Origin: Clostridia bacterium
Lineage (GTDB): Bacteria; Bacillota; Clostridia; Christensenellales; CAG-138
Direction: 5' to 3'
Assembly: GCA_017514685.1 (NCBI GenBank)
Contig: JAFWJN010000006.1
Span: 1 to 40,668 of the forward strand
Length of the DNA: 40,668 nt
The notes beneath the pieces are model-generated. The model was not told the origin of the DNA. It saw only the letters and a list, made by a program, of their open reading frames with translations, and did not search any database. The position numbers were made by a program, and so were the translations under genes. Positions 1,497 through 31,888 of the stretch are shown piece after piece; within the stretch, counting starts at the first letter, position 1, and every line of letters begins with the position of its first letter.

Positions 1497-3083
1497 CTAC
1501 TCTTCGTATACGGGACGTGTTTCTTCTGTATAAGTAAGAATGCTGGACCCGTAACAAAATTGTTTGCTCAAAAGTTCATACCGATCGCATTTGATGAGGT
1601 CGCGTTCTGACAACCACCGCCAGCCTTCTCCGGTTGGGTTCTGGGTGGTTGTATTAATTTCGGTATCCGGAAGAAGACGGCGTATTTCTTCTATCTGAGC
1701 TTTGGGGATCGTGTTCCGGGAGATCCACAGACGTTTCAGCTTTTTCAAACCGTATAGCGGGGTAATATCGCTGATGAGATTATAGGAAACGTTCAGATGC
1801 TCAAGGTTCGGACAGGATGCAAGGGGTGACAGGTCTTTGATCCTTCCGGAAAGGAACTCGCAGTATTCCAGCTTTTCATGATTTGCGATACCGGAAATAT
1901 CATTCATATAGCCTACCGCAATAATAACCACTTCCAGATCCGGCATGTAGGAAAGGAAATCCATTTTCTGAATATGATTATGACCGAGATCCAGATAACG
2001 GATTTCGGTACAGTAACGAAGGACCTTTGTATCGGCGTCTGTCAAAGTTTTGGCCGGCAGGTTACTGCTGAAGCGGATCATGATTGCGTCTGTACGGCAG
2101 GAATAGGTTCCAACGGATACGCGCCAAACAATTTTCGGATGAGGGAATTCTTCTCGAAGCTTTGCCATGTCGGCATTGGAGATTCCGCAGGATTCCATAT
2201 CAAGACGCTTTACGTTTCTGAGATAGGGAAGAAGGATTCTGAGATCGTCTATGTGATGTTTCAGTTGGATATTGTTAAAGCTTACGATTTCGTCCGCAAG
2301 CGAAAATGATGTTCCAAAGACCGAAATACGATAGTCGACCAAAAGATTTTGCCTGGCTTTCTGAAAAGCATCCGCCTGATCGAGCGTCCAACCGGACTCG
2401 CCTTCCAGGGGAGACAGAATGATCTTTTTCAACAACGGAAGTGCGGGGATAGCCTCCAGTATCTCATCGCAGAAGCTTGGAGAAACAGAACTCAGATCGA
2501 GGATTTCCGTATCGGAAGCAATGATCAGACTGGCGGCTTCGATGGAATACCGGAGAGACAGATCGTCGCGGACAGCGGTCAATGCCAGGGCATCGGCGGA
2601 AGACATGGGCTCGGTTACAGTCAATGAGCGGAGATTCGGAAGATAGAGAAGAGAAGAGGAATCCGATAATACAGACAGAGATACGGTTTGATCTTCATTG
2701 CCGACCATCTGATCTCCGAGCGGAACCGTATAATGAACCGAGAGGCGGGGATGCTCTTTCTGGAATGAAAGGATCTGCTCATAACAAGTGCTTCCGGAAA
2801 AATCAACAGAAGACAAAGAGGGAAAAAGATCCAGAAGAAAGAACTCATCTGCATTGATGATAAGTGCGACATCTGTTTCATTTCCGCTGAAGCGGGCTCC
2901 GCTTTGAAAGGAGATTCCCGCAGGAGCAGAGTCCGGAACGGAGGTCGGAGGGGACGTCTGAATCGCAGAGTCTTTTGCAGGCACAGAAGAAGATTCCGGC
3001 ACTGCGGAATCAGACCTGCAGCCGGAGGACAGAAGTGTCAGAAGAATTATGAAAGATATGAACAGAAGAGACCGTTTACGCAT
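1497..3083 (-). CDS. Leucine-rich-repeat lipoprotein
   Basis: The 528-aa protein has a lipoprotein signal peptide (MRKRSLLFISFIILLTLLSS followed by GCRSD, lipobox LSSGC with Cys at about 22), so it should be anchored to the outer face of the membrane. A Ser/Pro-rich spacer follows to about residue 60. The middle carries several L-x-x-L-x-L segments resembling degenerate LRRs. The clearest repeats are near residues 360-470: EIRYLDLGHNHI, DLEVVIIAVG, KLEYCEFLSG, NLEHLNVSYNLI and KLKRLWISRNTI, spaced 22-23 residues. These resemble internalin-type LRRs used for protein binding. Ligand unknown. The 3' end lies against the IS remnant, so the last dozen residues could have been altered. An extended -10 lies upstream at 3128-3136. 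Confidence 0.78.
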   Translation of the reverse strand: MRKRSLLFISFIILLTLLSSGCRSDSAVPESSSVPAKDSAIQTSPPTSVPDSAPAGISFQSGARFSGNETDVALIINADEFFLLDLFPSLSSVDFSGSTCYEQILSFQKEHPRLSVHYTVPLGDQMVGNEDQTVSLSVLSDSSSLLYLPNLRSLTVTEPMSSADALALTAVRDDLSLRYSIEAASLIIASDTEILDLSSVSPSFCDEILEAIPALPLLKKIILSPLEGESGWTLDQADAFQKARQNLLVDYRISVFGTSFSLADEIVSFNNIQLKHHIDDLRILLPYLRNVKRLDMESCGISNADMAKLREEFPHPKIVWRVSVGTYSCRTDAIMIRFSSNLPAKTLTDADTKVLRYCTEIRYLDLGHNHIQKMDFLSYMPDLEVVIIAVGYMNDISGIANHEKLEYCEFLSGRIKDLSPLASCPNLEHLNVSYNLISDITPLYGLKKLKRLWISRNTIPKAQIEEIRRLLPDTEINTTTQNPTGEGWRWLSERDLIKCDRYELLSKQFCYGSSILTYTEETRPVYEE

Positions 3084-3127
3084 GAACTGGGCTCCAGATA
3101 AGAATCAGAAAAAGAATCTGTATGCTG

Positions 3128-3136
3128 ATTATAGCA
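3128..3136 (-). promoter_or_regulatory. Extended -10 promoter for the LRR lipoprotein
   Basis: On the minus strand the sequence is TGCTATAAT, a perfect TGnTATAAT extended -10, about 45 nt before the ATG at 3083. No good -35 is seen 17 nt further up, as is usual for extended -10 promoters. Confidence 0.5.
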
Positions 3137-3203
3137 TAGGAAACAAGGAAAGAGAAGCAGACACACGAAGAAAGAATCTGTCCGGATTGATTGCAGGCAG
3201 CAG

Positions 3204-4220
3204 TTATCTAATCAGCGGAGCTAAAAAATTATAATAGATCAGCGCAAGGAGAAGAACCCCAATCAGAACACCCCGGAAAACCCGGCTTGCTTTTTTTTCG
3301 GTTTGGTTTTCGGACTCGAATACAGGCTGTGGTTTTGAAGCGGCGGATTTTCCGCATTGGGAAATGTGTTTGCCGTTCCAGGATATCGCATGGGCAGGGC
3401 ATACACCGCGGCACTCTCCGCAATGAATGCATTCGTGATCGCCTACATGACGGACGTCCATTTTGCAATGATTGACACATGCACCGCAGTGAGTGCATTT
3501 TTGCTCATCAACTTTGAGACCGATTATGGCAAGACGGCAGAAGATACCGTAGATAGCGCCAAGCGGACATAAAAAACGGCAGAAAGATCGGAAGCAAAAG
3601 ATGCATGCAAGTCCGATAATTGCCAGAATAACAAATTTGTTGGTGAAAAGTGAACCGAGAAGGGGGAACAGTCCGGAGTTGTTGCTGCTCATAAGCAAAG
3701 GACCCGCACCTTCCAGTGTCCCCGCAGGGCAAATGTACTTGCAGAAAGCCGGAAGAGGCATTTTTTTCAGACCGGCCCAAAGCGGGATCATGATGACAAA
3801 GAGGATCAGTATTACATGCTTCAGGTAAGACAGCACCCGCGTAACCCGGCTCTTCGAAATCTTTGGAACCGGTATTTTATAAAGAAGCTCCTGAAGCATT
3901 CCGAATGGGCAGAGCCATCCGCAGACGGTTCGGCCGAGTATGATGCCGAACAACATCAGAATGCCGATTACATAGGTTCCCGCGCGGGCACCTGAAGATG
4001 CAACTGCATTCTGAAGCGCACCAAGAGGACATGCGCCGACCGCTCCCGGACAGGAATAGCAATTCAGACCGGGTACGCAGACAGCTTTTGATGGTCCGCT
4101 GTAAATCGTACCATTCATAAACCCCTTGATATTGGCGTTGTAAAGGATGGCGCAGTAGAGCTGTGCCAGACGGCGTTTAGACGGACGAATCGCCGCCCAC
4201 CATTTTTTGATCTTATCCAA
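3204..4220 (-). CDS. NapH-like polytopic membrane 4Fe-4S ferredoxin protein
   Basis: The 338-aa protein has about five hydrophobic spans and four cysteine groups: CVPGLNCYSCPGAVGACPLG near 50, CGWLCPFGMLQE and CRFLCPLGAIYG between spans, and two classic 4Fe-4S clusters (CTHCGACVNHCKMD and CIHCGECRGVCPAH) near 240-285. This matches the NapH/YccM/CcoG-like membrane electron-transfer family. The electron donor and acceptor are unknown. I chose the TTG at 4220, which overlaps the upstream stop (TTGGATAA) and has CGGAGTG before it; the product then begins MDKIKKWW. An in-frame upstream start at 4265 would add 15 residues but overlaps the preceding gene by 53 nt. It is translationally coupled to the CXXC protein at 4213-4962, a pairing that suggests a redox role. 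Confidence 0.82.
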   Translation of the reverse strand: MDKIKKWWAAIRPSKRRLAQLYCAILYNANIKGFMNGTIYSGPSKAVCVPGLNCYSCPGAVGACPLGALQNAVASSGARAGTYVIGILMLFGIILGRTVCGWLCPFGMLQELLYKIPVPKISKSRVTRVLSYLKHVILILFVIMIPLWAGLKKMPLPAFCKYICPAGTLEGAGPLLMSSNNSGLFPLLGSLFTNKFVILAIIGLACIFCFRSFCRFLCPLGAIYGIFCRLAIIGLKVDEQKCTHCGACVNHCKMDVRHVGDHECIHCGECRGVCPAHAISWNGKHISQCGKSAASKPQPVFESENQTEKKASRVFRGVLIGVLLLALIYYNFLAPLIR

Positions 4221-4962
4221 GGCCGATACACTCCGCACAGATTCTGATTGCTTTATGGAATACATCCGTGATACTGCCGTTGAAAAATCCCGCCGCGATC
4301 AGGACAACGGCAAGGCAGATCAATCCAACCCGAATACCGGTCACGATCTTTTTGCGGTTTCCCGGCGAGGATTCAACGGAAGGATTTGACGCGTTGCATG
4401 ACTTACAGTCTGTTTTTTCGGTTAGGATGCGGGATTCACGCTGAATGCTCTTTTCTCTCAATAATTCGGTAACGGTCAAAGAAGAGAAAGCGAGGATAAC
4501 CCATGGAAGAACAAATAAAAGCATTCTGAATAAGGATTCTTCCGTAAAAGGATCTTTGCCGATGAGGTTTCTGCCCAGATAAATAAGGACCGGGATCACG
4601 CATACACCTGCAGAAACAAGACCAAACCAGCGATACTTTTTCTGGAGGGATTCTTCCCGTAAGGCTTCCTCGGAAAAAGAATCTGCTAAAAGCTTTAAAT
4701 TATCCCGCCGGAATTCAGCATCGTTTTTCGAGGTTCCATCGATCCTGATATTCAAAGCAAGGCATAGAACCGTCATAACAGCCGCGCCGATGAAGAGAGG
4801 AAGGGTTCTGCGGAAAATGCTCCGGAAGATGTCAGCGGTATAGACGGGATCGGAGGTCTGCTCTGTATGTTCTATAAGAACACGGACGACAGAAAGGGAA
4901 AGGACGATACATAAAGCAATGCAGAGGATCGCCTGAATCCATAAAAAGAACTTCTTGTTCAA
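4213..4962 (-). CDS. Membrane protein with C-terminal CD1871A-like CXXC domain
   Basis: The 249-aa protein has a hydrophobic N-terminal span (residues 7-27), a second near 55-70, two near 115-160 and one near 210-228. Its last 30 residues read FFNGSITDVFHKAIRICAEC then IGLG, with C242-x-x-C245. That tail resembles the tiny CD1871A-type CXXC proteins of Clostridioides, which I recall as stand-alone ORFs of about 50 aa; here it appears as the C-terminus of a longer protein. The body is not recognised. A cytosolic linker holds four charged Glu/Lys-rich stretches. The start is TTG at 4962, supported by AAGGAGGA 10 nt upstream. It lies first in a two-gene operon with the NapH-like protein, which suggests a shared membrane electron path. 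Confidence 0.7.
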   Translation of the reverse strand: MNKKFFLWIQAILCIALCIVLSLSVVRVLIEHTEQTSDPVYTADIFRSIFRRTLPLFIGAAVMTVLCLALNIRIDGTSKNDAEFRRDNLKLLADSFSEEALREESLQKKYRWFGLVSAGVCVIPVLIYLGRNLIGKDPFTEESLFRMLLFVLPWVILAFSSLTVTELLREKSIQRESRILTEKTDCKSCNASNPSVESSPGNRKKIVTGIRVGLICLAVVLIAAGFFNGSITDVFHKAIRICAECIGLG

Positions 4963-9369: not shown

Positions 9370-9969
9370 TTATGATTTACGCTGTTCGAGTTTGTGCTTG
9401 ATGCGCTGGATGGCGTTGTCAATGGATTTCGGGCTGCGGTTCAGCTTCTGTGCAATCTGCTGATAAGAATAACCGTTCAGATACAGACCGATTACGGTTT
9501 TTTCCAGGGAAGAAAGATTCTCGTTCAGAAAAGTGATGATCTGCTCGTATTCTTCCTCTCCGATCAGATGTTCCTCCGGATCAACGATCCGCAGATTCTG
9601 GACCGTATCAAAAAGGGCTTCGATGCCGCCCTTTTCAAACTTCGGTTGATCCACGGATACATAGTTGTTTAACGGAGAATGTTTTTTCCGGGTCGCGCTT
9701 TTGATTGCGGTCAGCATCTGCCGGGTAATGCAAAGATCAGCAAAACCGTGAAAGGAAGAAGCTTTTTCCGGATCATATTCTTTGATTGCCTTAAACAGCC
9801 CGATCATGCCTTCCTGTTCAAGATCGTTACATTCCGCTCCGATCAAAAAATAGGAACGGGCACGCACGTTGATCAGCCGTTTATAACGCTCATACAGCTG
9901 TTCTTCCGCATCTCTGTCGCCTTCGCGAAGACTCTTGAGCAGCTGTTCATCGGTTTTTGTTGATTCCAT
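9370..9969 (-). CDS. sigH: RNA polymerase sigma factor SigH (sigma-30 type)
   Basis: The 199-aa protein has region 2 (DLEQEGMIGLFKAIKEYDPE, then SSFHGFADLCITRQMLTAIK) at about 50-100 and region 4 (LEKTVIGLYLNGYSYQQIAQ with KLNRSPKSIDNAIQRIKHKL) at the C-terminus; region 3 is missing or short. This matches the stationary-phase sigma-H of Bacillus and Clostridia, which directs early sporulation and competence genes. The identification is strengthened by the neighbouring rlmB and mrnC genes, the usual context. I take the ATG at 9969 after GAAAGGACG; a longer in-frame start would overlap rlmB. The rlmB stop lies 23 nt upstream. The yacP (rae1) gene that commonly sits between rlmB and sigH is not there. 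Confidence 0.9.
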   Translation of the reverse strand: MESTKTDEQLLKSLREGDRDAEEQLYERYKRLINVRARSYFLIGAECNDLEQEGMIGLFKAIKEYDPEKASSFHGFADLCITRQMLTAIKSATRKKHSPLNNYVSVDQPKFEKGGIEALFDTVQNLRIVDPEEHLIGEEEYEQIITFLNENLSSLEKTVIGLYLNGYSYQQIAQKLNRSPKSIDNAIQRIKHKLEQRKS

Positions 9970-9992
9970 TTCGTATCGTCCTTTCCTACCGG

Positions 9993-10997
9993 TCACTTAC
10001 GATCCTGACGGCATTTTTCATACATCAGAATGGCCGCTGCTACGCCGGCGTTCAGGGAATCAATATGGCCTTTCATGGGAATCGATACCAAAAGGTCACA
10101 GCTTTCCCGCACCAGTTTGGAAAGGCCGTCACCTTCACTGCCGATGACCAGAGCCAAAGGACCGGAAAGATTCTGTTCCCCCATCGGAGAACCGTGCATA
10201 TCGGCGCCGGCGATCCATACGCCGGCCTTTTTCAGTTCGTCGACAGCACTCCGGATATTAACGACCCGGGCGATTTTCATATATTCCGCGGCACCGGCGC
10301 TGGCTTTGACAGCGGCTGACGTGACAGACGCGCTTCTGCGCTTACCGATGACCACGCCGTGGGCACCAACGCATTCCGCACTGCGGATGATGGAACCCAG
10401 ATTGTGAGGATCTTCAATACCGTCCAGCACGATGACGAACGGCTGTTCACCGCGGACTTTTGCTTCCTCCAGAATATCCTGAACAGTACAATATTCGACG
10501 CCGGCGGCATAGGCAACAATCCCCTGGTGGTTTGCAGTTTTTCCTCCGTGCCCGAACGGCATGCATAACTCATCCAGCTTTTTGCGGTCAACTTCCCGGA
10601 TAATCAGTTTGGAATCCCTCGCCATGCCGAGAATCTCTTTTAGACTGCCGTCGGTTTCCGTGCTGACCAGAATTTTATCGATGCTTCTGCCTGCCCGGAT
10701 CGCTTCCCGGACAGCATTGCGGCCGATCAGAAGATAAGGCAGTTCATCCGTTTCCGGCTGCACCGCGGGAATGGATTCCTGAGGAGCGGGTTTCTGATCA
10801 TTGGATTTCGAGCGGAATCCAGGTTTTTCAGGTCTGCTATAAGAATCCTCGTTCTTTTTTGGACCCCGGTAAGCATTTTCTTTTTTCCTGTAAGAGTCCG
10901 GCTCTCTCTTGAAAGTGTTTTTTTCGCGAGCGCCTTCTTCCGATTTTTTGTTAAAGTCAGTCCTGTGCGGTCTGTCTGTTTTCACTCTGTACGCCAT
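9993..10997 (-). CDS. rlmB: 23S rRNA (guanosine-2'-O-)-methyltransferase RlmB
   Basis: The 334-aa SpoU/TrmH-class enzyme has a long charged N-terminal extension (about 1-85) rich in Lys, Arg, Glu and Ser, probably disordered. A substrate-binding domain (LLIGRNAVREAI, about 90-155) follows, then the knotted methyltransferase fold with motif 1 (NLGSIIRSAECVGAHGVVIG), motif 2 (LALVIGSEGDGL) and motif 3 (SLNAGVAAAILMYE). The family methylates G2251 of 23S rRNA at the 2'-OH using SAM. The N-terminal tail is longer than in E. coli or B. subtilis RlmB. The ATG overlaps the end of mrnC by 41 nt and has GGAGGAGAA before it. Confidence 0.92.
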   Translation of the reverse strand: MAYRVKTDRPHRTDFNKKSEEGAREKNTFKREPDSYRKKENAYRGPKKNEDSYSRPEKPGFRSKSNDQKPAPQESIPAVQPETDELPYLLIGRNAVREAIRAGRSIDKILVSTETDGSLKEILGMARDSKLIIREVDRKKLDELCMPFGHGGKTANHQGIVAYAAGVEYCTVQDILEEAKVRGEQPFVIVLDGIEDPHNLGSIIRSAECVGAHGVVIGKRRSASVTSAAVKASAGAAEYMKIARVVNIRSAVDELKKAGVWIAGADMHGSPMGEQNLSGPLALVIGSEGDGLSKLVRESCDLLVSIPMKGHIDSLNAGVAAAILMYEKCRQDRK

Positions 10998-11424
10998 CTG
11001 ACAGATTCTCCTCCACTAAAGCAATTTTCATCAGCTCACCGATTCTCTCATCCCGGCCAAGGCAGTATAAATACCCAAGCAAGGATTCAAAACCGGTCGC
11101 AGTCCGATAATCCTGCACATTCGCATTCTTTGGGACTGTGCCGCTGTGTGCATTTCTGCCACGAAGAAATGCACCGTTTTCTTCTTCCGATAAATATGGC
11201 CTGACACGAAAAAAGGCTTCTGCCTGACCCTTTGCGCAGACAAGTTTTGTGCATTTCATATGAAGAGAATGAACCGTACCGTCTGTCGTGAAAGAAAGAT
11301 ACGTTCTGGCATATAAGTCATAGATCGTATCGCCTAGATAAGCAAGAGTCAGGGCTGGAAGCTGTTTCGGATCTTTGCTGCCGGTGCAGCTTAAAACGTC
11401 TGCAATTTGTTTTTTGATGCTCAT
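10957..11424 (-). CDS. mrnC: Mini-ribonuclease III (MrnC)
   Basis: The 155-aa protein has the Mini-III signature LALTLAYLGDTIYDLYARTY-type block (here PALTLAYLGDTIYDLYART, about 21-39) with the catalytic Asp/Glu, and later NAHSGTVPKNANVQDYRTAT and GFESLLGYLY. There is no dsRNA-binding domain, as expected. Mini-III trims 23S rRNA precursor ends as a dimer with Mg ions. The first ATG that fits the family is at 11424 and it has no Shine-Dalgarno; a promoter -10 ends 7 nt before it, so the mRNA may be leaderless. It heads the operon with rlmB and sigH. Confidence 0.9.
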   Translation of the reverse strand: MSIKKQIADVLSCTGSKDPKQLPALTLAYLGDTIYDLYARTYLSFTTDGTVHSLHMKCTKLVCAKGQAEAFFRVRPYLSEEENGAFLRGRNAHSGTVPKNANVQDYRTATGFESLLGYLYCLGRDERIGELMKIALVEENLSDGVQSENRQTAQD

Positions 11425-11431
11425 ACATGTA

Positions 11432-11460
11432 AATATATATGCTTTTGAGGTTGAAAGCAA
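11432..11460 (-). promoter_or_regulatory. Promoter of the mrnC-rlmB-sigH operon
   Basis: Minus strand: TTGCTT (11455-11460), 17 nt, TATATT (11432-11437). The expected start point is near 11425, one base before the mrnC ATG. A GTATT-TTCG-AATAC dyad (11461-11474) abuts the -35. Confidence 0.6.
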
Positions 11461-11571
11461 GTATTTTCGAATACTATTTCCGGAGACCGTTTTATCTAAC
11501 ACCAATTTGTCTAAGTTCGGTCTTTCTATTTGCAAACTGTGATAAAAATTTAATATGAATAACACAATTTA

Positions 11572-26796: not shown

Positions 26797-28263
26797 GTGA
26801 AAAAGAAAAACGGATTAACGAAAAAATTTGTCCGGCGAGCCGTCTGGATCTCCACGCTGTTGATGATTGCTTTTGTGATCGCGGGGATGATATTGTATTC
26901 CAACCGGGCATCGATTCTGAAAAACCGGGCGGAAAAAGCCGTAAAGAGCGGAGAATACCAGCAGGCGGTCAATCTTCTGGAACAGATGGAAGCCGGGGAT
27001 GAACGGGACGAACTTCTGGAAGAAACCCGGTATAAGGCAGCGGAAAAACTTCTGGAAAACGGCAGATATGAAGAAGCTCTGACAGCATTCTCAAAACTGG
27101 GCGCATATGCGGACGCACAGGAAAAGATCCTTGCGTGCAAATACGGGATAGCAGATCAATTATTTGAAAAGAAAGAATATGAAAAAGCAAAAGATGCCTT
27201 TTTCTCTCTGGCCGGTTATTCCGATGCTCTTGAAAGATACAGCGAATGCAGATATGCCATAGCGCTTGATCTGGAAGCGAAAGACCCAGAGGCGGCATTT
27301 CAAGCACTGTATGAGCTGGGCTCTTTTTCAGATGCGAGAGCGCATGCGGAGCAAATAGCAGTATCCTTTACCGGAATACAGGATGCCGATGCGGCAATTT
27401 TGAGAATGCTGGGCGCAGAAGGTGCAGTCGAGGATCTTTACGGGGAGATCCGGAGCAAACTTCCGGGGCAGGTTCTTGCAGTCGGATTTTATCACACAGC
27501 AGGGCTGCGGTCGGATGGCACTGCGGTGGCATGCGGTAAAAATGATGACGGGCAGTGCAACGTGTCCGGATGGAGCGGACTCATAGCGATTGATTGCGGC
27601 GCTTACCATACGGTCGGACTGAAAAAAGATGGGACTGTAATTGCCACAGGCAGAAACGATTCGGGTCAATGCAACGTATCAGGATGGACGGATATCGTGG
27701 CGATTGCCTGTACGGATTATGACACACTTGGACTGAAAAGCAACGGTACCGTTGTTCACACCGGTTATCACGCCTATCCTGAGCTGTCCGGATGGAGTGA
27801 TATCACAGTCATCGGAGGAGGCTCTTATATTGCCGCTGCAATGAACCGTGCCGGCATCTTTTATTCCAGCCACGATTCCGCACGGAGTGAGACTATGAAA
27901 GGGTCTGTCGCAATTGACGTGTCCACCGGTTACGCACTCGGACTGAGACCCGACGGGACCGTGATCAATACTGCTGTCGAAAATGAATGGAAAGATATCA
28001 TAGCCATTTCAGCCGGAAGCACCGGTTTTATGGGGCTGGATGTAAACGGGCAGATCTTTGCACACTGGTTCTCTGAACGTGACACGATTGATTTTACAGA
28101 TGTTTCCAAAGCCGTTGCTGTTGCAGTTGGAGGAACTCACAGCGCGGTGCTGCTCGAAGACGGAACAGTAATTGCGCGCGGAGAAAATGAAAATGGGGAG
28201 TGCAGTACTCAGGAGTGGAAACTCGGAACATGGACCATTTACGCAATGACGCAGGAAGAATAG
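26797..28263 (+). CDS. Membrane-anchored TPR plus RCC1-repeat protein
   Basis: The 488-aa product has a membrane span (about 15-37), then four TPR-like helix pairs (about 45-185: KSGEYQQAVNLLEQM, ENGRYEEALTAFSKLGAYAD, EKKEYEKAKDAFFSLAGYSD, AKDPEAAFQALYELGSFSDA). A C-terminal set of about five RCC1-type blades begins LAVGFYHTAGLRSDGTAVAC, with three near-identical GQCNVSGW turns spaced 39 residues. RCC1 propellers are protein- or ligand-binding. The domains are expected to lie outside the cell. Start is GTG at 26797 with AAGGCGG upstream; the third gene of the MBOAT/DHHW operon. Its role is unknown; a scaffold for the O-acylation complex is a guess. A terminator follows at 28342. Confidence 0.75.
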   Translation: MKKKNGLTKKFVRRAVWISTLLMIAFVIAGMILYSNRASILKNRAEKAVKSGEYQQAVNLLEQMEAGDERDELLEETRYKAAEKLLENGRYEEALTAFSKLGAYADAQEKILACKYGIADQLFEKKEYEKAKDAFFSLAGYSDALERYSECRYAIALDLEAKDPEAAFQALYELGSFSDARAHAEQIAVSFTGIQDADAAILRMLGAEGAVEDLYGEIRSKLPGQVLAVGFYHTAGLRSDGTAVACGKNDDGQCNVSGWSGLIAIDCGAYHTVGLKKDGTVIATGRNDSGQCNVSGWTDIVAIACTDYDTLGLKSNGTVVHTGYHAYPELSGWSDITVIGGGSYIAAAMNRAGIFYSSHDSARSETMKGSVAIDVSTGYALGLRPDGTVINTAVENEWKDIIAISAGSTGFMGLDVNGQIFAHWFSERDTIDFTDVSKAVAVAVGGTHSAVLLEDGTVIARGENENGECSTQEWKLGTWTIYAMTQEE

Positions 28264-28510: not shown

Positions 28511-28561
28511 ATATTTAGCATAATTTGTGGTGCTCTAAAGAATATTACGTAATTCATCAAT

Positions 28562-28596: not shown

Positions 28597-31146
28597 ATGG
28601 ACAGTATCAAGGCAATCAAAAAAATAACAGCGGGAATTCTTGCACATGTGGATGCGGGAAAGACCACTTTGTCTGAAGCACTTTTATATCGGGCCGGAAT
28701 GCTTCGCAAACTGGGACGTGTCGATCATAGAGACACGTTCCTAGATACCCATGCTCTGGAAAGAGACAGGGGCATTACCATTTTTTCAAAGCAGGCACGC
28801 ATACATACGGATGAGCTTGATCTGACATTGCTAGATACACCCGGGCATGCAGATCTTTCGGGAGAAACAGAGCGTGCGATTGCGGCGATGGATATCGCCA
28901 TACTGGTAATCAGCGGAACGGATGGTGTGCAGGCACATACGGAGACTCTGTGGTCTCTGCTTTTAAGATCCAGGATACCGACCTGGATTTTTGTGACAAA
29001 GATGGATGCCGCAAAACAGACGAAAGATGAGCTTTTGGAAGACCTTCAGAACAGTTTTGGAGACGGCTGCATGGAACTTCCTGCAACAGATCCGGAATCC
29101 ATTGCCATGCTGAGCGAATCTTCTTTGGAAATGTATATGGAAACAGGAACCGTATCCGACGAAGAAATCACCCGGCTGATTCGGACCAGAAAGCTGTTTC
29201 CGGTCAGTTTCGGATCCGGTCTGCGATTGGACGGGGTGGATGATTTCCTGTCTCTTTTGACAAAGTATGCGCCGGAGCCGGAGAGAACGCCGGCTTTCGG
29301 TGCAAGGATCTATAAGATCGGCAGAGACGCTCAGGCAGGACGGCTGTCCTATATGAAAATCACAGGAGGAGCATTGTCTGTCCGGGATACGTTAAGTTAC
29401 CGGGGCTTCAACGGTAAAGTGCTGGAAGAAAAAGCAGCGCAGTTAAGACTGTACTCGGGGCCTAAATATGATACGGTTCAGACGGCTTTTGCCGGGGATG
29501 TGGTTGCTGTAACAGGCCTCTCCGAAACGCGTCCGGGACAGGGACTTGGCATTGAACCGGATTCTGAGACGCCGTTGCTGGTTCCTGCACTGGGGTATCG
29601 GATCGGATTACCGCAAGACACAGACCCGAGGACTGTACTTCCAAAGCTCAGACAGCTGGAAGAGGAAGAACCTCTGCTGCATATTGTATGGCAGCAGAGC
29701 CTGGGGGAAATTCAGGTTCAGCTGATGGGCCCTTTACAGACGGATGTGATCGCAGCTCTGATACGGGAACGGTTTAATCTGGAGGTGAACATCGGGACCG
29801 GACGAATCTTGTACCGGGAAACGATAGCCGCACCTGTGGAAGGCATAGGACATTTTGAACCGCTGCGGCATTATGCAGAAGTGCATTTGCTGCTGGAACC
29901 CGGTGAACCCGGGAGCGGGCTGCAGTTTGCATCCGCAGTCAGTGAGGATGATCTCAATCTGAACTGGCAGAGGCTTATCCTGACCCATCTTGCAGAGAAA
30001 GAACATGTCGGTGTACTTACCGGCTCACCGCTGACAGATGTGAAGATCACATTGATCGCAGGGCGTGCTCATTTGAAACATACAGAGGGAGGAGATTTCA
30101 GACAGGCCACATACCGCGCAGTCCGTCAAGGGCTTATGCGTGCGGAAAGTATTTTGCTGGAGCCGTATTATCATTTCCGGCTGGAAGTACCGTTTGCGGA
30201 AGTTGGACGCGCAATCAGTGACATCCAGACTATGGGCGGAATCCACGATGCACCGGAAGAGGCAGGCGGCAGGATGGTGCTGACAGGTTCTGCGCCGGTG
30301 TCCGCTATGGCAGAGTATGCGACCGAAGTAGCAGCTTATACCCGCGGTCATGGAAGACTATCCTGTTATGTGGAAGGATACCGTCCATGCAAAAATGCAG
30401 AGTCGGTCATTGCAGAGCGGCAGTATGATCCTGAGGCAGACATTGAGAACACTCCTGACAGTGTGTTCTGCGCGCACGGAGCGGGATTTATTGTAAAATG
30501 GAATCATGTAGAAGAGTATATGCATCTTGATACAGGCTTCGGAAAAGAAGAGCCTTCCGCTGCACCCCGGCTGAAACAGGGGAATCTGAATATTGATGAG
30601 AAAGAACTGGAAGCGATTATGGTACGGGAATTCGGCCCTATCCGCCGGAGCATTTATTCAGCTCCGAAGAAAATCGTTACAGCAGATCATCAGATATCTT
30701 CACCGAAAGCTCCGGAGCATATTATTGTGGACGGATACAATGTCATTTTTGCCTGGGAGGAACTCAAGGTGCTGGCAGAAAAGGATCTGGAGTCCGCGCG
30801 TTCGCAATTGATCGAAATGCTCATCAACTATCAGAGTTACACCGCATCGGAACTGGTGCTTGTATTTGATGCTTATCAGGTATCTGCAGGCACAGGGGCA
30901 AAGTACAGTGAGGGACCGATGCATATTGTGTTTACAAAAGAAAATGAGACTGCAGATATGTATATTGAGCGTTTGGTAAACGAAATAGGAAAAAACGAGA
31001 CAGTCAGGGTAGTGACTTCGGATTCGCTGATCAGACTCGGAGCTCTTCGCTCAGGCGTGCTTCGTATGTCTTCTGCTGAGTTTATTGATGAGGTGAAACG
31101 AATCCTGGGGAAAATCGCGGAAATGATTCAGAGGGATAACCGATAA
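28597..31146 (+). CDS. TetM/EF-G-like ribosomal GTPase fused to a YacP/Rae1-type NYN endonuclease
   Basis: The 849-aa protein starts with a GTPase domain: AHVDAGKT (16-23), RGITI (58-62), DTPGH (80-84), and G4 as TKMD (134-137) where TetM has NKxD. EF-G-like domains II to V follow to about 640, ending with a PDSVFCAHGAGFIVKW block. After a charged linker (650-705), residues 709-849 match YacP/Rae1: IIVDGYNVIFAWEELK (D712), LINYQSYTA, LVFDAYQ (D758), FTKENETAD (D787) and VVTSD (D809). These four aspartates are the usual PIN/NYN metal site. Prediction: a GTPase that binds the ribosomal A site and cuts mRNA there. Length exceeds TetM (639 aa) by the NYN part. Tetracycline resistance is not implied. 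No Shine-Dalgarno is seen; the start is set by the conserved N-terminus. ylmH follows at 1 nt. Confidence 0.88.
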   Translation: MDSIKAIKKITAGILAHVDAGKTTLSEALLYRAGMLRKLGRVDHRDTFLDTHALERDRGITIFSKQARIHTDELDLTLLDTPGHADLSGETERAIAAMDIAILVISGTDGVQAHTETLWSLLLRSRIPTWIFVTKMDAAKQTKDELLEDLQNSFGDGCMELPATDPESIAMLSESSLEMYMETGTVSDEEITRLIRTRKLFPVSFGSGLRLDGVDDFLSLLTKYAPEPERTPAFGARIYKIGRDAQAGRLSYMKITGGALSVRDTLSYRGFNGKVLEEKAAQLRLYSGPKYDTVQTAFAGDVVAVTGLSETRPGQGLGIEPDSETPLLVPALGYRIGLPQDTDPRTVLPKLRQLEEEEPLLHIVWQQSLGEIQVQLMGPLQTDVIAALIRERFNLEVNIGTGRILYRETIAAPVEGIGHFEPLRHYAEVHLLLEPGEPGSGLQFASAVSEDDLNLNWQRLILTHLAEKEHVGVLTGSPLTDVKITLIAGRAHLKHTEGGDFRQATYRAVRQGLMRAESILLEPYYHFRLEVPFAEVGRAISDIQTMGGIHDAPEEAGGRMVLTGSAPVSAMAEYATEVAAYTRGHGRLSCYVEGYRPCKNAESVIAERQYDPEADIENTPDSVFCAHGAGFIVKWNHVEEYMHLDTGFGKEEPSAAPRLKQGNLNIDEKELEAIMVREFGPIRRSIYSAPKKIVTADHQISSPKAPEHIIVDGYNVIFAWEELKVLAEKDLESARSQLIEMLINYQSYTASELVLVFDAYQVSAGTGAKYSEGPMHIVFTKENETADMYIERLVNEIGKNETVRVVTSDSLIRLGALRSGVLRMSSAEFIDEVKRILGKIAEMIQRDNR

Positions 31147-31147
31147 G

Positions 31148-31888
31148 ATGGATGCAAATGAGTTTCTGAGACGCGTTGATGACCTTGCTGACCGCGCTGA
31201 GAGAAGAGGCATTGTTACCCGGACAGGCTTTCTGACTCCCGCGGAGCAGTATATGCTCAGGCAATACTATAAGGATGATAATCTGGTGCTTACCGGAGGG
31301 CAGCCGGATTGCGAACGGCAGGCAGCATTCTTTCTTCCGGATTTTCTGGATCCGGAACAGTTTGATCCTGCTGAGTTCCTCTGCGCCGTGAAGATCGAAG
31401 CACATTTCGGTTCGCCCGGGCATCGGGACTATCTTGGCGCGGTTCTCGGACTTGGAATTGTACGGGAGGCCGTTGGCGATATCCGGATTTTTGGCGAGAC
31501 GGCATATCTGTTTTGTCTGCCCACGGTTGAGACGGTGCTGATTGAAGAATTGAAAAAAGTCGGGCATATCAGCGTGACCGCCGCTCATTACATCCTGGAG
31601 GATGTACCGGCGGCGGCCATTAAAGTCAGGAAGATTTCATTTACGGTAAAAAGTCTGCGCCTGGATGCAGTGGCAGGGCCAATGTTCGGTATGAGCCGCA
31701 CGGCGGCGGCTGATCTGATCCGTATGGGTGCAGCAAGCCTGAATTATGCTCTTTGCGAGCGAACGGATGCACCGGTGAAGGAAGGGGATATCATCTCTCT
31801 TCGGGGTCACGGAAAAGGCTGCTTAAAGACTGTGGGCGGAAGGTCCAGAAAAGACCGCCTGTTTGTTGAAGCGGAAGTATATCTGTAA
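31148..31888 (+). CDS. ylmH: YlmH-family S4-domain RNA-binding protein
   Basis: The 246-aa protein matches YlmH of Bacillota: an N-terminal alpha/beta part with FLTPAEQYMLRQYY and AVKIEAHFGSPGHRDYLGAV, then GLGIVREAVGDIRIF, and a C-terminal S4 domain (about 165-230: LRLDAVAGPMFGMSRTAAAD, then LIRMGAASLNY and GDIISLRGHGK). YlmH binds the ribosome/tRNA region and is a paralogue of RqcP in ribosome-associated quality control. The ATG lies one base after the GTPase stop (TAAGATG), with AGAGGG inside the upstream gene as ribosome site, so the two genes are translationally coupled. In many Bacillota ylmH sits in a divIVA/ileS cluster instead. The downstream gene is convergent after 3 nt. Confidence 0.88.
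   Translation: MDANEFLRRVDDLADRAERRGIVTRTGFLTPAEQYMLRQYYKDDNLVLTGGQPDCERQAAFFLPDFLDPEQFDPAEFLCAVKIEAHFGSPGHRDYLGAVLGLGIVREAVGDIRIFGETAYLFCLPTVETVLIEELKKVGHISVTAAHYILEDVPAAAIKVRKISFTVKSLRLDAVAGPMFGMSRTAAADLIRMGAASLNYALCERTDAPVKEGDIISLRGHGKGCLKTVGGRSRKDRLFVEAEVYL

Follow-up and report, generated by a model that had tools for sequence, protein, structure and literature searches.

A Rae1-type nuclease domain on an EF-G-like GTPase appears to have replaced free Rae1 in many Clostridia

We analyzed a stretch of 40,668 nucleotides (nt) of contig JAFWJN010000006.1 (assembly GCA_017514685.1) from a Clostridia bacterium (CAG-138). We will call this stretch the window. On its forward strand, 28597..31146 (ATG at 28597, stop codon ending at 31146) encodes a protein of 849 amino acids in which an EF-G-like GTPase is joined to a C-terminal NYN nuclease domain that resembles Rae1 (also known as YacP). 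In many Clostridia, Rae1 appears to have left its old place in the genome and become the tail of this little-studied, ribosome-type GTPase. Our best reading of the sequence evidence is that the fusion acts in translation as a chromosomal factor and has inherited ribosome-dependent mRNA cleavage from Rae1, and that it is not a drug-resistance gene. Specifically, it would be a single-copy chromosomal factor with a Rae1 domain on a GTPase that is EF-G-like and forms a separate subfamily, and the old rae1 would then have been lost. We give this reading a probability of a little under 60%.

The C-terminal domain is of the Rae1 type

The C-terminal domain (amino acids 709-847; 30721..31137, forward strand) matches positions 1-141 of the 166 positions of Pfam's NYN_YacP at 141.2 bits, against a cut-off of 24.6. 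An earlier note, made from the letters of the window, had described the 849-residue frame as an EF-G-like body with a C-terminal YacP/Rae1 NYN domain, and had proposed a separate profile search of the NYN segment as a check. The Pfam and structure matches agree with the description. The last 143 residues alone match the structures of YacP/Rae1 from Bacillus subtilis (5mq8 and 5mq9, E = 9e-24), and the other five matches of this segment look like chance (E of 0.39 or worse). When residues 599-849 were modelled alone, the mean predicted local distance difference test score (pLDDT) was 77, and values exceeded 90 over most of the NYN core. In a Foldseek search with this model, the B. subtilis chains 5mq9_B, 5mq8_A, and 5mq9_A were the sole matches with E under 0.001, with template modelling scores (TM-scores) to the target of 0.68-0.75. 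Rae1 is thus the best match in both sequence and structure.

The two proteins share the NYN fold and four aspartates, which the earlier note had picked out. D712 (30730..30732) corresponds to D7 of Rae1, D758 (30868..30870) to D53, D787 (30955..30957) to D81, and D809 (31021..31023) to D104. All four are invariant in an alignment of 53 fusions, which includes the window's protein. We take D7 and D81 to be the catalytic residues of Rae1. Judging from the match to Rae1, the four aspartates probably cluster in space. Together, the NYN match and the conserved aspartates uphold the note's claim of a Rae1-type nuclease.

B. subtilis Rae1 is a free protein with a C-terminal tail, whereas the window's domain is fused and lacks the last ~25 residues of Rae1. 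Because it is part of an 849-residue protein and its profile match stops at position 141 of 166, we file it as a Rae1-type domain and not as Rae1. Some other fusions reach profile positions 163-166, that is, they keep the tail. In the lineages without the tail, docking on the ribosome may have become a task of the GTPase.

Replacement of free rae1

Among 393 genomes of the class, 250 have a match to NYN_YacP: 245 have one match, four have two, and one has three. Among the matches listed, the domain lies either in a frame of 169-216 amino acids or in a long frame, mostly of 820-950 amino acids, some of which are cut by contig ends. From the best matches listed, we classed 64 genomes as having short frames (free Rae1) and 80 as having long or truncated frames; the rest are unclassified, and a few listed genomes (G172, G156, G141, G092, and G235) are in neither set. 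In all 80 of the long-frame genomes, a row-by-row comparison placed the GTPase body directly before the NYN domain on the same contig. The fusion is found under 20 family labels in this sample, and named relatives at 76-80% identity carry it. Extra matches to the GTPase body in two genomes (G041 and G135) score 269-387 bits, which is the level of other GTPases, and in two others (G295 and G371) a single body is split into two pieces. Where a genome has more than one NYN match, the second is below the cut-off in G120, G174, and G208, and G370 has fragments.

Free rae1 usually lies between rlmB and sigH. Of 27 free-rae1 loci, 22 have the order rlmB-rae1-sigH, four have rae1-sigH, and one has neither. 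(The identities of rlmB and sigH were confirmed with Pfam on L006 and L093.) In the window, rlmB, which is the upstream neighbor of free rae1 in other genomes, is at 9993..10997 on the reverse strand (TIGR00186, 222.9 bits, above the cut-off; SpoU domains in Pfam). It overlaps by 4 nt a sigH-like sigma factor gene (9370..9996, reverse strand; Sigma70_r2 and Sigma70_r4_2). The pair is ~18.6 kb from the fusion. Upstream of rlmB is an mrnC-like gene with a Ribonuclease III domain (10957..11565, reverse strand; Ribonuclease_3, 74.1 bits). This locus (L146) has sigH, rlmB, and mrnC, and has no match to rae1.

The same holds more broadly. rlmB was found in all 40 of the fusion genomes searched with the rlmB family, and intact rae1 is absent beside rlmB in all 31 of the fusion-genome loci that we compared (30 fetched loci and the window). 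sigH still adjoins rlmB in 15 of the 31. In one genome (G370), the 744 nt between rlmB and sigH (L153, 2218-2961) hold two separated pieces of rae1, one of them with an in-frame stop. This genome carries an intact fusion elsewhere, and the decayed rae1 is likely a relic of the replacement. Ten gaps were tested, and besides L153, vestiges of rae1 of 16 residues were found in L164 and L172. The slots without rae1 and the decayed copies imply that the fused copy replaced the free gene, and we consider this to be good evidence that it took over from free rae1.

The fusion likely arose in a single event. On the GTPase tree, the fusion label changes twice, since a gene without NYN (L142, see below) sits inside the fusion clade. 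On the NYN tree, with 57 fused and 27 free domains, it changes three times.

An alternative that we consider unlikely is that the NYN domain works in the maturation of ribosomal RNA (rRNA) or transfer RNA (tRNA), or in ribosome turnover, with the GTPase holding it on the ribosome, instead of cleaving mRNA. An older proposal of rRNA/tRNA maturation for YacP-like NYN domains is cited in the available part of PMC4342817, and the old neighbor, rlmB, encodes an rRNA methyltransferase. Also, loss of yacO (rlmB) or rae1 acts in one pathway in B. subtilis, according to an excerpt of PMC6613710. But the closest characterized relative, Rae1, is described in excerpts of two papers as an endonuclease that cuts mRNA in the A site (PMC6613710, PMC12320835).

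The GTPase half and its unfused sister

The G domain (amino acids 11-226; 28627..29274) matches Pfam's GTP_EFTU at 158.8 bits. (All parts of the fusion gene are on the forward strand.) Several of its motifs are invariant in the aligned fusions: G21, K22, T23, and T24 of the P-loop, R58-I62 of switch I (RGITI), and D80-H84 (DTPGH). The NKxD motif reads TKMD in the window's protein, with K135 and D137 invariant in the alignment. Domains II and III of EF-G follow (amino acids 236-311 and 339-400; 29302..29796; EF-G_D2 and EFG_III, the latter below its cut-off), then domain IV (amino acids 402-516; 29800..30144; EFG_IV, 65.3 bits) and domain V (amino acids 520-600; 30154..30396; EFG_C, 57.9 bits). 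The loop at the tip of domain IV is KHTEGGDFR (amino acids 494-502; 30076..30102): H495-R502 (HTEGGDFR) is invariant in all 53 fusions and K494 is present in 51. Because the key residues are conserved in each, the GTPase half and the nuclease half both look active. An alternative start, an in-frame TTG at 28525, would extend the protein to 873 amino acids.

Domain V is followed by an extension with the pattern DSVFC.HGAG..VKW...MHL (amino acids 608-645; 30418..30531). The extension is common to the fusion and to an unfused version of the GTPase, which stops at the extension or shortly past it. The unfused proteins have the same tip, as well as the motif S[VI]FC..G near the end. They are found in 18 of the 64 genomes with free Rae1, at 685-832 bits (with a partial profile match of 532 bits in G146). 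Another protein (from G376, L119, 536 bits) has a similar tip without the extension, and we did not count it as an unfused sister.

For comparison, the sample without NYN consisted of 16 listed order-mates and 80 other genomes. The unfused GTPase is found in 18/64 genomes with free Rae1 versus 6/96 without NYN (Fisher p = 2e-4, ignoring phylogeny). This difference points to a partnership of the GTPase and Rae1. Because the GTPase also occurs unfused in genomes without NYN, it must do something there that does not involve Rae1, and this is an argument for a translation factor that can stand by itself.

In the set of plasmid records, the unfused GTPase is also found on megaplasmids of Ligilactobacillus salivarius and on a 2.7-Mb Paenibacillus record. 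One of these genes (L142, 3995-5929, from pMP118 of L. salivarius UCC118) is beside an rpsN gene and is named as tetracycline resistance. It is possibly a transferred copy that lost the nuclease.

Between the extension and the nuclease is a linker (amino acids 646-706; 30532..30714) that is modelled with low confidence. In the full-length predicted model, pLDDT is under 50 at residues 651-667 and 680-703, and the one predicted helix (residues 668-679) is in a conserved stretch. The linker is the least constrained part of the protein, with a mean nonsynonymous rate (dN) of 0.33 and a ratio to the synonymous rate (dN/dS) of 0.31 (11 of 15 pairs; dS is near saturation).

These features of the linker, along with the unfused GTPase in genomes without Rae1, are in line with a looser kind of fusion, of two ribosome factors that each work alone: the GTPase would be a helper like EF-G or BipA, the Rae1 domain would still be doing its old job, and the two would be joined only so that they are co-expressed or are both near the ribosome. 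We think that this is improbable, given that the fused state occurs under so many family labels and that just one gene without NYN (L142) falls within the fusion clade.

Comparison with TetM, TetO, and EF-G

Judging from profile scores and phylogeny, the GTPase is not TetM and forms its own clade. The best match of the fusion in NCBIfam is tet_protect, at 362.1 bits versus a cut-off of 775. It also falls short of the cut-offs for TetM_W (233.8 versus 1100), OtrA (269 versus 900), TetQ (218.4 versus 1425), and TetM (195.4 versus 1420), and for EF-G (TIGR00484, 231 versus 659.4). Three unfused relatives score 411-458 bits on tet_protect, which is likewise under 775. The earlier note's description of the body as "TetM/EF-G-like" is right for the fold, but the body does not reach the curated cut-offs of these Tet and EF-G models. 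With a profile built from 26 bodies, the fusion body scores 1068 bits, while the presumed EF-G of the same genome scores 210 and 152 bits, in two pieces. (This presumed EF-G is a separate frame of 722 amino acids, at G000:C28.)

The fusion shares the five-domain EF-G-like body of the ribosome protection proteins TetM and TetO, but it has its own C-terminal extension and lacks their Pro-509, which lies in the tetracycline site of TetM according to part of PMC8161019. K494 of the window's protein aligns with P509 of TetO (PVSTPADFR, 509-517), and this column is K in 51 of the 53 fusions, with one A and one S. (We took the numbering of TetM and TetO to be equal, as each has 639 amino acids.) TetM-like proteins from two clostridial genomes (L129 and L131, with the tip SPVSTPADFR) are 28-30% identical to the fusion body, and so are the Tet(W), Tet(M), and Tet(O) genes among the ten phage matches listed. 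In a tree of 95 rows, the GTPases group together whether fused or unfused, and are separate from the TetM-like rows, with a Shimodaira-Hasegawa-like approximate likelihood ratio test (SH-aLRT) value of 100 and a branch of 1.4; this tree was built with a quick method and has long branches (L142, L119, and EF-G) and unequal composition. With the full-length model (predicted TM-score [pTM] of 0.56), Foldseek and VIA gave EF-G-like chains only among the best 50 matches of each. TetM is not among the 50 VIA matches listed, which excludes nothing.

The fusion is rarely found on mobile elements. It is covered to at least 80% in two of 1242 matching plasmid records and in two of 97 matching phage records, and the latter are unannotated faecal contigs. 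With so few matches, it is not a typical mobile gene, though it is not confined to chromosomes.

Given the missed cut-offs, the absence of Pro-509, and the tree, we rejected a tetracycline resistance gene as the leading reading. It is very unlikely that the fusion protects ribosomes against tetracycline as the Tet proteins do, with an added RNase that alters the resistance mechanism, as proposed in 2015. In favor of this, PMC4342817 files it under Tet in the part available, and tet_protect is its best NCBIfam match. Also, two full-length fusions are on plasmid records, and one of them carries the name TetM/TetW/TetO/TetS, which most of the L. salivarius unfused copies listed bear as well. Against it, the Tet cut-offs are missed, the position of Pro-509 is not proline, identity to Tet genes is low, the clade is separate, and the fusion takes the place of a housekeeping gene. 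The earlier note had likewise suggested a chromosomal ribosome factor in place of a resistance gene, and this fits the single copy in the genome and the empty rae1 slot on the same contig, as well as the Tet comparisons.

Proposed mechanism

We propose that a single fusion event, or a very small number of them, attached the Rae1 endonuclease domain to the C-terminal end of an EF-G-like GTPase, and that the old rae1 between rlmB and sigH was lost after the fusion. By homology to EF-G-like factors, the GTPase would bind the factor site of ribosomes whose A site is vacant or blocked. There, the KHTEGGDFR tip might probe or clear the decoding site; TetM places the tip of its domain IV in the decoding site. 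By homology to Rae1, the nuclease would cleave mRNA. Once GTP has been hydrolyzed or the GTPase has withdrawn, the NYN domain, held by a linker of ~60 residues, would cut the mRNA in the A site or beside it; we infer that it is delivered there. Cleavage would leave a truncated complex for trans-translation or ribosome-associated quality control (RQC). Co-transcription of ylmH with the fusion is probable in the window's clade, where YlmH may carry out the RQC step once the 50S subunit is free. The move of Rae1 onto the GTPase suggests that mRNA cleavage was built into a translation factor powered by GTP.

More tentatively, the fusion could be a GTP-gated mRNA-cutting factor. The GTPase, of an uncharacterized EF-G-like subfamily with the tip HTxGGDFR and the motif S[VI]FC..G, would sense a blocked or empty A site, and hydrolysis would license its own nuclease. 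In the clostridia with free Rae1, the same parts would be separate partners. We know of no other endonuclease that is driven by a translational GTPase. We consider this reading to be less likely than not.

Several observations weigh against a translation factor that took over from Rae1. First, we reason that the domain IV tip and the NYN domain should collide if both are in the same A site, so cleavage should follow the withdrawal of domain IV or take place beside it. The linker might give the NYN domain access once domain IV has left, or allow it to work on the side where the mRNA enters. The full-length model, given its pTM, offers no reliable placement of the NYN domain. The tail that the window's domain lacks includes the position of R166. 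R166P is among the loss-of-function suppressors in B. subtilis, which the authors conclude disrupt YacO or Rae1, in the part of the paper available (PMC6613710).

Other such points come from the distribution of the genes. The activity of NYN_YacP is dispensable, because 143 of the 393 class genomes have no match to it. Within the window's own order, the gene is patchy: all 20 of the order-mates listed lack the NYN domain in any form. One genome (G284; L181 and L182) has both the fusion and a complete free Rae1, and is the sole such genome among the five with multiple NYN matches. Another (G062) carries part of a further GTPase body where a contig ends (G062:C32:3-1406, reverse strand; model positions 1-470, 783 bits, with one stop), which may be a second copy. 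Two fusions are on records classed as plasmids, of 252 and 518 kb, both from Clostridia. At 16 of the 31 rlmB loci sigH, too, is missing, which makes the empty slot less telling in those cases. The six genomes with the unfused GTPase and no NYN comprise 5 of 80 class genomes plus a split copy in G203 (and none of the 16 order-mates). Finally, 13 of the 18 co-occurrences of the unfused GTPase and Rae1 are in one family (f42).

Relation to previous work

The fusion is already known. The available part of a 2015 study (Atkinson 2015, PMC4342817) reports a YacP-like NYN domain fused to Tet in ten species of clostridiales, with the idea that the RNase contributes to resistance. The architecture (a GTPase of the EF2 family with a C-terminal YacP-like NYN domain) and the taxon are the same as ours, and these are very likely the same proteins. 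The earlier note had overstated the novelty of the fusion, which has been in print since then. The study places the GTPase in the Tet subfamily, and the part available makes no mention of Rae1 activity, the loss of free yacP, the unfused sister, or ylmH. Among the literature matches listed for Rae1/YacP with TetM, NYN, EF-G, or Clostridia, we found no other paper on the fusion. What is new here is the replacement of free Rae1, the empty slot, the non-TetM clade, the unfused sister, and the local adjacency of ylmH. This makes a clearer evolutionary case than we found in print that Rae1 has been fused with a translational GTPase, which perhaps controls it.

Few endonucleases are known to cut mRNA on the ribosome; these include the RelE family and Rae1, according to an excerpt of PMC12320835. 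Homology places the GTPase to which Rae1 is joined at the A site, which makes it possible to test directly what triggers mRNA cleavage on the ribosome. Also, because some relatives of the fusion are annotated as tetracycline resistance, surveys of resistance genes may be counting them.

ylmH and other neighbors in the window

The gene just downstream of the fusion is ylmH (31148..31888, forward strand, 246 amino acids). As the earlier note had it, there is 1 nt between the stop codon of the fusion and the ATG of ylmH. The protein matches YlmH_RBD above the cut-off and B. subtilis YlmH (8s1p) with E = 1e-28. It retains R182 and R195, the two arginines that contact H69, and we consider it to be a YlmH. 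Excerpts of PMC11317155 report that both arginines are essential and that YlmH acts in RQC in B. subtilis. This ylmH is the genome's only match to itself at E = 0.001, and it ends 3 nt ahead of a convergent frame. The genome also encodes an RqcH-type NFACT protein. The best match to transfer-messenger RNA (tmRNA) in this genome is 21.3 bits, against a cut-off of 47; as the assembly is 82.6% complete, this could be an assembly gap.

The link between ylmH and the fusion that the note proposed is not general, and we rejected ylmH as the defining partner. Of 61 fusion loci, 15 contain ylmH: in 12 it comes directly after the fusion, and in three it is 0.9-1.9 kb away. All of these fusions are at least 56% identical to the window's protein. 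Counting just the loci with at least 2 kb downstream, it is found in 13 of 50. The direct adjacency, which sets this ylmH apart from the known RQC factor, is seen only in the window's relatives. Nor is there a conserved operon, as no cluster of neighbors is present in more than 9 of the 61 loci; this count is crude and low, since L040, L063, L072, and L082 were dropped and it saw ylmH beside the fusion in 5 loci versus 12. A three-part system of GTPase, nuclease, and YlmH, as the note envisaged, may exist in the window's clade, and it does not define the fusion.

In one genome without Rae1 (L126), the unfused GTPase (1498-3462, reverse strand) and ylmH (3803-4537, forward strand) are divergent and ~340 nt apart, so that this is another neighborhood in which the GTPase and ylmH meet.

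An Rfam scan of the window gave no match at the gathering threshold. Promoter-like sites in the window are at the shuffled level (5 versus 4.2). Terminator-like sites exceed it (7 versus 3.0, standard deviation 1.5), and none of the 7 is between the fusion and ylmH. The gene upstream of the fusion (26797-28263), which has no evident link to it, has RCC1 repeats and a weak match to TPR.

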